From the NCBI RefSeq assembly GCF_000018865.1, contig NC_010175.1:4898001-4962000 (forward strand): DNA of 64,000 nucleotides, read 5' to 3'. Positions 52,373-55,125 of this stretch are shown here, in pieces. The notes under the pieces are model-generated. The model had not been told where the DNA came from. It made no database searches and saw only the letters and a program-made list of their open reading frames with translations. Both the position numbers and the translations under genes were made by a program. This DNA is from Chloroflexus aurantiacus J-10-fl (GTDB lineage: Bacteria; Chloroflexota; Chloroflexia; Chloroflexales; Chloroflexaceae). The stretch's first letter is position 1. Every line of letters starts with the position of its first letter.

Positions 52373-53231
52373 GAGCCTGTTATGGACTTTTCGGTTCTGC
52401 TCGTATATCATGACGCTATGACACGAACAGCCTATCCCAGTGATGTTTCCGATGAAGTGTGGGCGTTTGTCGCGCCCTCTGTGACGCTGATGGACGAAGA
52501 AGCGCCGCAGCGGAACTATCCCCTGCGCGACGTCTCCAACGGGCTGCGCTCCATGCTGCGCACGGGTGCGCCATGGCGGATGCTGCCCACCGACGTGCCG
52601 CCGTGGCCCGTGGTGGATCACCAGACCCAGCGCTGGCTGACGGCGGGCGTGGTTGCGCAGATGGTGCATGACGTGCGGATGCTGCTGCGCGAAATTACCG
52701 ACCGCACGCCCCAGCCCCGTGCCGTCATTGTGGATAGCCGGACGCTCCCGTCGACGCCGGAACGCGGGGGACGTGCTGGCGACGATGGACACAAGCGGCG
52801 GAACGGCGCGACGGTGCATCTGGCCGTGGCTACGCTGGGGCACCTGCTGGCGGTGGTGGTCACGCCAGCCAACGACCACGACCAGGCGCAGGTGGCGGCG
52901 CTGGCGCAGCGCATGCAGGAGATACCTGGCGACACGGTGGAAGTGGCCGTCGTTGACCAGGGCTACACTGGTGAGCAACCGGCAGCCGAGGCCGCCGCCC
53001 ACGGCAGTCGCCTGGCGGTGGTCACGCTGCCGACCGCCAAACGGGGCTTTGTCTTGCTGCCGCGGCGCTGGGTGGTCGAGCGCAGGTGCGCCTGGATGAC
53101 GCGCTGCCGTCGCTTGGTGCGCGACTACGACCGTGTGGCAGAGACGCTGGCCGGCTTGCATGTCGTTGCCTTTGCCATCTTGTTGGCCCATCGGTTTGTC
53201 GCTCTCATGGTTCAACGTTCATAACAGGCTC
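52373..53231 (+). mobile_element. IS5-family insertion sequence, copy 2
   Basis: This 859-bp element has the same ends GAGCCTGTTATG / CATAACAGGCTC as copy 1 and is flanked by TA on both sides. It differs from copy 1 at many sites across the transposase. It sits right at the end of mgtE, whose stop codon is formed by the boundary. Confidence 0.85.
52418..53224 (+). CDS. IS5-family DDE transposase, copy 2
   Basis: This 268-residue transposase is homologous to the one at 26360 over its whole length. The catalytic residues are kept: D106 (VIVDSRTL), D180 (AVVDQGYTG), E221 (RWVVERRCAW). Several substitutions in otherwise conserved sites (for example RCAW for SFAW) show it has diverged; whether it is active is unclear. 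Confidence 0.85.
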   Translation: MTRTAYPSDVSDEVWAFVAPSVTLMDEEAPQRNYPLRDVSNGLRSMLRTGAPWRMLPTDVPPWPVVDHQTQRWLTAGVVAQMVHDVRMLLREITDRTPQPRAVIVDSRTLPSTPERGGRAGDDGHKRRNGATVHLAVATLGHLLAVVVTPANDHDQAQVAALAQRMQEIPGDTVEVAVVDQGYTGEQPAAEAAAHGSRLAVVTLPTAKRGFVLLPRRWVVERRCAWMTRCRRLVRDYDRVAETLAGLHVVAFAILLAHRFVALMVQRS

Positions 53232-54586
53232 TAGCTTGTTAGTCCCAGCAACCAGGTCGCCAGCGAGAAATAGATCAACACCCCACCAATATCCGAGAGC
53301 GAGGTCACCAATGGACCGCTGGCCGTCGCCGGATCAAGCCCCAGCCGGCGCAACAGGAATGGCAACGACATCCCAATCAAACTACCCATCAGCACCAGCA
53401 CCATCATCGTCAGCGAAACCACGCTGGCGACGTGCCAGCCAACCCGAATCACACCTAGTAAACCGACCGCCAGCGCCATCGCACTCCCCAACAACAGCGC
53501 GACCAGCAACTCTTTTGCCAGCAAACGCCACCAGTCGCCTGAATCGATGTCACCGGTCGCCAGCGCACGCACCGTCAGCGTTGCCGACTGCGAACCGGCA
53601 TTACCGGCGCTACCGATCAGCAGTGGCAGGAAGAAGACCAGGGCCACGACTGCGGCAATTGTCTCTTCAAACGCAGCAATCGCCGCCCCAGAAAAGACAT
53701 TCACAAAGACCAGGGCGACCAGCCAGGGCACGCGCTTGCGGACAAGTTCAAAGATCGGGGTCTCCAGATAGCTGCCACGCAGCGGCTCAATAGCGGCACT
53801 GCGATAGAAGTCTTCAGTGACCTCCTCCTCGGCAACGTCAATCAGGTCGTCAAAGGTTACGATCCCAACCAGTACCCCATCTGAGTCAACGACCGGCAAA
53901 GCCGGCAAGCTGTAGCGCCGCAACGCCTCAACTGCCCGTTCACGATCATCAAATGCCGACAACACAACATAGCTCTCGTCCATCAGACTACGCACCGTCT
54001 GTGTCGGCTCGGCCAGAATAAAACGACGCAACTCAATCGCATCGAGCAGCCGCCACTTCTCATCGGTCACATAAATCACATCAATTGTTTCGCTATCGCG
54101 TCCACGTACCCGGATATGGTCGAGGGCACGGGCAATCGTCCAACCCGGACGCACCGCGACATAATCGGGGGTCATCAGACGCCCGACGCTCTCTTCAGGA
54201 TAACCGAGTAACTGACGGGCTTCTTTGAGATCGTGTGGGCTGAGCAGATTGAGTAACTTTTGCGTTACCTGGCCGGGAAGCTCTTCAAACAATTGCGTGC
54301 GATCATCGGGGCTGAGATTCGCCAGCAGTAAGCGCGTCTCCTCCAGACTCAGACTGGTCAACAACTCGTATTGATCGTCATGCTCAAGGTAGGAGAAGAC
54401 TTCACCGGCTAACGCACGTGGTAAAACGCGAAACACCAGCATGCGCTCGGCGGCAGACAGCTCGCGGAGCAGATCGGCAATCTCCGGCGCCGGCCAGCGC
54501 GAAAGTTGCTCGCGCAGATCGAGCCAGCGCTGTTCGGCAATCAATGCCTTAACCTCATCGAGGCGGGGAGTTGGGAATGTGGTCAT
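53231..54586 (-). CDS. mgtE: magnesium transporter MgtE
   Basis: This 451-residue MgtE has all three parts: the N-terminal helical domain (about 1-125, with LSPDDRTQLFEELPGQV), two CBS domains (about 130-250, with GRLMTPDYVAVRPGWT and LPALPVVDSDGVLVGIVT) and five transmembrane helices with the pore motif GSAGNAGSQSATLTVRALA. It is a Mg2+ channel gated by internal Mg2+. ATG 54586 has AGGGGGTG upstream. The TAG stop is made by the TA target and the last base of the IS. Its leader carries a structured attenuator-like region. Confidence 0.92.
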   Translation of the reverse strand: MTTFPTPRLDEVKALIAEQRWLDLREQLSRWPAPEIADLLRELSAAERMLVFRVLPRALAGEVFSYLEHDDQYELLTSLSLEETRLLLANLSPDDRTQLFEELPGQVTQKLLNLLSPHDLKEARQLLGYPEESVGRLMTPDYVAVRPGWTIARALDHIRVRGRDSETIDVIYVTDEKWRLLDAIELRRFILAEPTQTVRSLMDESYVVLSAFDDRERAVEALRRYSLPALPVVDSDGVLVGIVTFDDLIDVAEEEVTEDFYRSAAIEPLRGSYLETPIFELVRKRVPWLVALVFVNVFSGAAIAAFEETIAAVVALVFFLPLLIGSAGNAGSQSATLTVRALATGDIDSGDWWRLLAKELLVALLLGSAMALAVGLLGVIRVGWHVASVVSLTMMVLVLMGSLIGMSLPFLLRRLGLDPATASGPLVTSLSDIGGVLIYFSLATWLLGLTS

Positions 54587-54641
54587 TGTCACCCCCTGTG
54601 CTTTCTGGCAGCGGCACAGGAGGTAACGACATTCAGTACAC

Positions 54642-54674
54642 AAAAAGCCCCGGTAAGCTCAACCTCACCGGGGC
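54642..54674 (-). terminator. terminator hairpin in the mgtE leader
   Basis: On the minus strand GCCCCGGTGAG pairs with CTTACCGGGGC, followed by TTTTTG. It lies before the mgtE start, so it acts as an attenuator rather than a gene end. Confidence 0.8.
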
Positions 54675-54834
54675 AGATCGTTATGATCAGACCAAACGTC
54701 TACTCATATCGACACCGTGAGCCGATGAGGCCGGTGCAGGTATTGATTGTCATTACCATACTGTGCCGCTGACGAGAATGACTACTATCCATAGCGGTTC
54801 CGTTCCTCATCGTGTCTAAACGTTGCCAACAGGC
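54675..54834 (-). promoter_or_regulatory. structured mgtE leader, candidate riboswitch
   Basis: The 160-nt leader before the terminator contains CGATGAGG (54812-54805) complementary to CCTCATCG (54730-54723), with GACAC/GTGTC arms outside. CACCGG (54736-54731) could pair with CCGGTG of the terminator arm and thus act as antiterminator. I find no M-box consensus. Confidence 0.5.
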
Positions 54835-54840
54835 TTCACT

Positions 54841-54869
54841 ACTATACGCCGGAGACGCTGATTTGTCAA
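54841..54869 (-). promoter_or_regulatory. promoter of mgtE
   Basis: On the minus strand TTGACA (54869-54864), 17-bp spacer, TATAGT (54846-54841). The predicted leader is about 248 nt. Confidence 0.8.
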
Positions 54870-54899
54870 TCTTGCGCACATTGGTAAGTCATTTTCTGG

Positions 54900-55125
54900 C
54901 AGTGAGCGAGTCTGTCCGTAAATTTGTTATTAAGAAAGTGTTAAGACATTTGAAGAAAGTTTAACTGACAATCTCCAGAAAAATATCTTCAAGAACAAGT
55001 TATTTAACCAAAAGATGTAAAGATTTTCTATCAAAAAGATTAAGAAAATGTTACCCCAAAATCCGCTCTGAAGCCGTATCCTGAATCCCATCACTAACGA
55101 CGATTCTCCATAGTACCTGTCAAAC
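54900..55125 (+). promoter_or_regulatory. AT-rich region with spaced TTAAG-like repeats
   Basis: AT-rich stretch in a GC-rich genome, with TTAAGAAAG, TTAAGACA, TTGAAGAAAG and TTAAGAAAA motifs. It precedes the gene at 55144 and could be a regulator-binding region. No gene is coded here. Confidence 0.4.

Follow-up and report, generated by a model that had tools for sequence, protein, structure and literature searches.

Leader peptides and the M-box in the control of Mg2+ genes

In classical amino-acid attenuators, such as the trp and his leaders, an upstream open reading frame (uORF) overlaps mutually exclusive stems located before an intrinsic terminator. When Mg2+ genes are considered, the closest described systems are the enterobacterial leader ORFs mgtL, in the leader of mgtA, and corL, the leader ORF of corA (PMC11552253). 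MgtL carries an EPDP motif, its early acidic residues destabilise the ribosome, more so at low Mg2+, and ribosomes drop off from it at low Mg2+ (PMC11282234). MgtQ, a peptide of 8 aa encoded between mgtC and mgtB of Salmonella, impedes its own translation through Asp2 and Glu5, which also raise mgtB, acting on mgtB translation and not on a terminator (PMC8092293). As far as the literature examined goes, Mg2+ sensing via ribosome stability on a leader peptide has been described in enterobacteria.

The locus analysed here, the leader of mgtE in a window of 64,000 nucleotides from Chloroflexus aurantiacus J-10-fl, shares with CorL and with MgtL, and IRD-type leaders generally, a short uORF with acidic first codons in a leader that precedes the gene of a Mg2+ transporter, as judged by frame and gene, and, in the mechanism proposed below, the coupling of ORF translation to transcription termination. 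With MgtQ it shares Asp at codon 2 and the position of the uORF within alternative stems, since the Salmonella pairings 1:2, 2:3 and 3:4 resemble A:B, B:C and the terminator described here (PMC8092293). In contrast to the Rho-dependent MgtL, the window leader has an intrinsic terminator, and its uORF contains no proline and so no EPDP motif; uORFs of this kind mostly contain His, occur in Chloroflexales, often behind an M-box, and precede genes for MgtE, Nramp-type, CorA and MgtC proteins. A leader-peptide attenuator for Mg2+ genes in Chloroflexales would follow a logic known from MgtL and MgtQ, with a different peptide, terminator and context; searches of one open-access library on mgtE, Chloroflexus, the M-box and leader peptides or uORFs turned up no report of this system.

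Organization of the mgtE leader

On the minus strand of the window, a promoter, a structured leader, an intrinsic terminator and mgtE follow one another, and each element of this order, already described in an earlier note on this DNA, could be located:

54841-54869 (-): promoter; -35 TTGACA at 54869-54864, 17-nt spacer, -10 TATAGT at 54846-54841
54805-54812 (-): strand A, CGATGAGG; invariant in 8/8 Chloroflexus leaders
54700-54792 (-): uORF of 30 codons, MDSSHSRQRHSMVMTINTCTGLIGSRCRYE; stop TAG at 54702-54700; codon-position bias and peptide signature in relatives
54766-54797 (-): start-codon hairpin, CCGCT 54797-54793 with AGCGG 54770-54766; five pairs, invariant in 8/8
54722-54730 (-): strand B, CCTCATCGG; within the Gly-Leu-Ile-Gly codons of the uORF; partner A or C
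54689-54701 (-): stop-codon hairpin, AGAC 54701-54698 with GTCT 54692-54689
54663-54671 (-): strand C, CCGGTGAGG; 5' arm of the terminator and candidate antiterminator partner of B
54642-54674 (-): intrinsic terminator; stem 54674-54647, T-run TTTTT 54646-54642
53231-54586 (-): mgtE, 451 aa, ATG at 54586; MgtE_N, CBS and MgtE domains

The promoter agrees with the consensus at 11 of 12 positions and has the same sequence in Chloroflexus relatives, and the 5' start of the RNA is predicted near 54834. A scan returned one such site against 0.9 expected from shuffles, which makes it weak as sole support, and the terminator scan of the window leader likewise found one against 1.0 expected; a counterpart of the terminator is present in all eight Chloroflexus mgtE leaders. 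Strand A also contains GAGG, the likely ribosome-binding sequence, and, at 54810, a further ATG upstream of and in frame with the uORF. In one relative (L002, the mgtE leader of G006), several dozen bases are inserted between the promoter region and strand A, relative to the window leader. Just 3' of mgtE, an ORF that reads by eye as transposase-like (52382-53224, plus strand) separates the gene from that of an ABC-transporter permease, which in relatives comes directly after mgtE.

Alternative pairings and a proposed attenuation mechanism

The leader folds more stably than expected by chance, both with its terminator (195 nt, folding energy z -4.65) and without it (160 nt, z -3.04), none of 200 shuffles being equal in either case. 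The long-range stem proposed earlier is borne out as an 8-bp pairing A:B of CGATGAGG (54812-54805) with CCTCATCG (54730-54723), the latter arm falling in the Gly-Leu-Ile-Gly codons of the uORF, a short conserved ORF that the earlier reading had missed. The hexamer CACCGG (54736-54731) is, as suggested, able to pair with CCGGTG of the terminator arm, and a better and longer alternative exists in B:C, CCTCATCGG (54730-54722) with CCGGTGAGG (54671-54663), of 9 bp including one G-U. The uORF and the intrinsic terminator are therefore combined with mutually exclusive stems in the manner of a leader-peptide transcription attenuator. Unlike in the trp and his leaders, there is no run of cognate codons and the genes are not biosynthetic: reading by eye, no run of one codon is shared among the peptides of relatives or of M-box leaders.

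Both pairings are preserved within the genus. A:B together with its inner extension comprises 11 pairs, all unvarying across eight Chloroflexus leaders; the stem is kept in 8/8, but because it never varies it is uninformative on covariation, for or against. Of 31 pairs compared within the genus, two show changes in both partners, neither of them in A:B; one pair of the stop-codon hairpin, for instance, is GC in 6/8 and AU in 2/8 sequences. Of B:C, nine core pairs out of 11 are intact in 8/8 leaders, and strand C is kept although one terminator pair is broken in 6/8.

When 28 representatives of the 42 leaders were considered, the duplex between the uORF region and the terminator arm was better than shuffles at p 0.05 in seven (Fisher p 1.2e-5, an optimistic value, the 28 leaders being related); it is absent in G010 (p 0.95), and the short leaders with 13 codons offer no clear place for it. 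The position of the duplex was analysed in 13 genus representatives, in nine of which the best duplex begins 50-66 nt past the ATG against 2.4 expected (p 8e-5, for an interval chosen after inspection of the data), that is, just past a ribosome on the first dozen codons and beneath a ribosome near the end of the uORF. When the nascent leader was folded as far as the end of C with stretches masked to mimic a ribosome, B:C reached 1.00 for a ribosome on the start codon, 0.82 for one on codon 6, 0.00 for codon 26 and 0.30 for the stop; with no ribosome it was already 0.60, which counts against an attenuator. In the full leader at equilibrium the terminator stood at 0.99 or above in every ribosome state, so that the decision of the switch must fall during transcription, under kinetic control.

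The structure is real and its role in all likelihood regulatory, and the window leader is probably a translation-coupled transcription attenuator driven by its leader peptide. The sequences themselves show the anatomy, a conserved frame with its peptide signature, and the association with Mg2+ genes and M-boxes; we infer translation, signal, ribosome drop-off and direction of the switch as follows. A ribosome would initiate the 30-codon uORF and be held or lost at its first, acidic codons (Met-Asp-Ser-Ser-His), presumably when cytoplasmic Mg2+ is low and ribosome stability reduced. Such an early stall or abort would leave A covered and B free to pair with C as C leaves the polymerase, so that the terminator would not form in time and mgtE would be transcribed. 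If translation proceeded to the end, the ribosome would cover B, or A would be freed to re-pair with it; with B occupied, C would be left for the terminator and mgtE would be off.

The uORF behind M-box riboswitches and the nature of the signal

The peptide predicted from the uORF of the window leader (54792-54700) begins MDSSHSRQRHS, and one stem arm lies inside its frame. When related uORFs are compared, the signature is an acidic start, a His usually at residue 4-8 and then often Arg; MgtL is likewise Arg-rich after its acidic start. The peptides begin as a rule with Met-Asp or Met-Glu and the genes are Mg2+ genes, which makes Mg2+ the likeliest signal.

This link is strengthened by the M-box (RF00380), which controls Mg2+ genes with a terminator, as the present module would. 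It is absent from the window leader, as the earlier note had maintained: Rfam at its gathering thresholds returned rRNA only for the whole window, a search of 54400-55000 at E values up to 10 gave no credible match, and the leader had no covariance-model match to RF00380 of at least 44 bits. The significant Rfam match that would have spoken against a new element was thus not found in the window. In several relatives, Rfam placed RF00380 directly upstream of the uORF, and when 82 genomes of the order were searched with the covariance model, 25 M-boxes were located in 23 of them, loci selected by the covariance model alone and independently of the uORF. On the 3' side of these M-boxes come their own terminator, an acidic-start uORF some 50-85 nt after the aptamer, and a second terminator, so that the riboswitch stands directly upstream of the module in 25 loci, the module itself differing in its dependence on a reading frame.

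An M[DE] ORF of 20-46 codons follows 22/25 M-boxes (0.22 expected from dinucleotide shuffles) and the acid-then-His pattern 21/25 (0.25 expected); a second terminator is present in 23/25 leaders and both terminators in 22/25. In G066 and G042, which are among the 22, the ORF counted by the strict scan is an M[DE] ORF in another frame, with MDASHS and MDDSHH also present there. Of the three misses, G033 has MDGSHQR outside the interval used, as its terminator went unscored; in G055 an ORF that begins with TTG behind GGAGG reads by eye as MDDPHQHPG; and G020 has MAHADPDG. In G039 and G064 the tandem leader precedes a hydrolase-like ORF, about 2 kb upstream of the mgtE domain, so mgtE there may be reached via an operon. 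The window's own genome also contains such an M-box (126.9 bits; L273:1541-1709, minus strand, corresponding to G000:C1:586740-586908), followed, at about 586.7 kb, by MEEGGSHRWRWRN, a uORF with an acidic start, and by a second terminator, all located 5' of a gene cluster with corA and mgtC.

The earlier interpretation is therefore supported in part: it was right about a cis-regulatory mgtE leader with mutually exclusive pairings, and a link to Mg2+ is very probable, as almost every M-box in the order has such a uORF behind it, but the new aptamer is not supported. Judged by its sequence, the window leader is the second module of the tandem leaders standing alone.

The main alternative, rather unlikely in our estimate, is a real uORF attenuator that responds to another signal, such as translation capacity, ATP or charged tRNA, and that works together with the M-box, as the Mg2+ sensor, in the tandem leaders. 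A second Mg2+ sensor after an M-box would be redundant, and there is a precedent in Salmonella mgtCBR, where a tandem pair of leader ORFs senses ATP and charged tRNA-Pro (PMC8092293). Against this, the uORF occurs with no M-box in the window leader, in Herpetosiphon-like leaders and in Roseiflexaceae Nramp leaders, where it must carry whatever regulation exists, and its acidic start resembles those of MgtL and MgtQ, with no run of any codon.

Conservation of the reading frame

A search for mgtE in 41 genomes, the window's and 40 relatives, gave matches in 38, and the same uORF precedes mgtE in 8/8 Chloroflexus genomes, with Asp2 in all eight. Variable columns fall at codon positions 1/2/3 in the numbers 10/8/15 among the Chloroflexus uORFs and 3/2/8 among those of the Nramp group; codons for Asp, His and Thr change synonymously, and Leu is encoded by several different codons. 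In Chloroflexus, no variation occurs from A up to and including the start codon, nor in 14 nt around B, which indicates that RNA pairing and coding are both constrained. In other genera the uORFs differ and keep the signature, as in MDVSSHSRRR, MDGSHTGQRR, MEGSHQQ, MDDYHQQ, MDSTSHS, MNADGHSSNRIQ and MSTDEHSSYRIR; the acidic start is common to leaders that are otherwise unrelated in RNA sequence, and in most of them a stem and T-run lie 14 to 45 nt 3' of the stop codon. Some uORFs have no His, namely those of G001 (Tyr), G025 (MDSSYPP) and G011 (MDDAYP), and that of G020 begins MAHADPDG.

A new ligand-binding riboswitch, with a Mg2+ or nucleotide aptamer and an incidental short ORF, is very unlikely on these grounds. 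The strong fold before the terminator (z -3.04), the invariance of A, B and the start-codon hairpin and the Mg2+ gene downstream would suit it, but there is no Rfam match, changes are synonymous, and beyond the genus the conserved part is the start of the peptide: by eye, no RNA core was seen to be shared across genera among the leaders. Moreover, the MDDDYHS leaders, whose 13 codons start within about 7 nt of the -10 box, leave little room for an aptamer. The aptamer of the earlier note was accordingly set aside, because the leaders revealed a reading frame but neither an Rfam match nor an RNA core in common, and conservation tracks that frame and its acidic peptide start.

Outside the window's family, some uORFs begin roughly 6-10 nt after a TATACT- or TACAAT-like box and, being so close behind a -10-like element, look leaderless. 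Among the Nramp-type leaders, L188, L194 and L196-L201 have TTGACA, a spacing of 17-18 nt, TATACT and the uORF ATG 6-7 nt later; these are probably leaderless leader-peptide genes, which is unusual for an attenuator.

Returning to the leader-peptide attenuator, a wider reading can be offered tentatively, at somewhat less than even confidence: M-[DE]-x-x-H may define a family of nascent peptides dedicated to sensing Mg2+, with an origin separate from that of enterobacterial MgtL. Such peptides would act alone in the window leader and, across Chloroflexales, as a further Mg2+ gate placed in series with the M-box; in near-leaderless versions the Mg2+ sensor would be the 70S ribosome itself, initiating on the first nucleotide or right beside it. 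If true, the enterobacterial logic would recur with another peptide in a distant phylum, before four gene families and behind 22/25 M-boxes, and would suggest the ribosome as a general Mg2+ sensor; the module also offers a peptide motif that can be tested and a natural RNA device with two gates.

Distribution across Mg2+ gene families

In Chloroflexales, the motif uORF is found upstream of four Mg2+ gene families: mgtE, corA, mgtC and Nramp-type genes with a MgtE_N/CBS protein, Nramp-related Mg2+ transporters being known (PMC4072509, PMC8806188). Counts are based on patterns defined after the first leaders had been inspected. Among mgtE loci with a scored terminator, 23/31 have the motif uORF, against 1.05 expected from shuffles; three of the other eight (L008, L022, L081) have a uORF outside the pattern or distance. 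Left out of this count were two loci that were too short, L124, and 37 with no terminator at the score used, for several of which the start point lay too far upstream and some of which have a uORF.

In the Nramp-type loci, the signature precedes a gene for a PRC/MgtE_N/CBS protein, followed by that of the Nramp transporter. The 16 usable upstream regions (L195, with 31 nt, was dropped) show uORF and terminator in 11, a TTG-start version in one more (L190, the same place as L321) and neither in four. Before mgtC, the signature occurs with a rubrerythrin-like ORF in between (G002, G007; the rubrerythrin match is below Pfam's cut-off), and an MDSSH uORF is present in 2/30 mgtC loci, for one of which, L142, no terminator was scored. 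The corA loci, taken as a contrast, gave 0/30 with a matching uORF-terminator pair in the leader; three pattern matches lie in other places, two of them where a coding gene ends.

An order-wide search with the pattern ATGGAVRGYAGTCAY returned 17 matches, four unrelated and 13 upstream of Mg2+ genes (10 mgtE, one mgtE remnant, one mgtC and one Nramp-type); its reversed control gave 10. For an unbiased scan, one genome per species (84,980 species) was searched for ATACT, 4-9 bases and codons for MDDDYH: ten of the 11 matches are a 13-codon uORF with a terminator and a MgtE_N/CBS gene, and the remaining one, in a Mariprofundaceae record, is unrelated. Beyond the order, 20 mgtE leaders from other families of the class contributed one candidate (G096, MSDSDSSPRTKR), and 17 phylum-level pattern loci (L277-L279, L285-L298) contributed none.

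That a short ORF and pairings arose by accident in a GC-rich leader with an unregulated terminator is hardly credible, since, although single-leader promoter and terminator scans are no better than shuffles and most B:C duplexes are individually not significant, shuffle expectations are exceeded about 20- to 100-fold, the module is common to four Mg2+ gene families and M-boxes, and a terminator between promoter and gene in 8/8 Chloroflexus leaders would silence mgtE unless relieved.

Two further observations concern individual loci. At L120 (G048:C13:116500-119700), a full uORF-terminator leader is followed by the first mgtE codons only and then by the neighbouring permease gene, so that the leader seems to have outlived its mgtE gene. 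Finally, L234 and L238, from MAG records titled Singulisphaera and Thermoflexus, titles that may be wrong, carry a Roseiflexaceae-type leader and operon.
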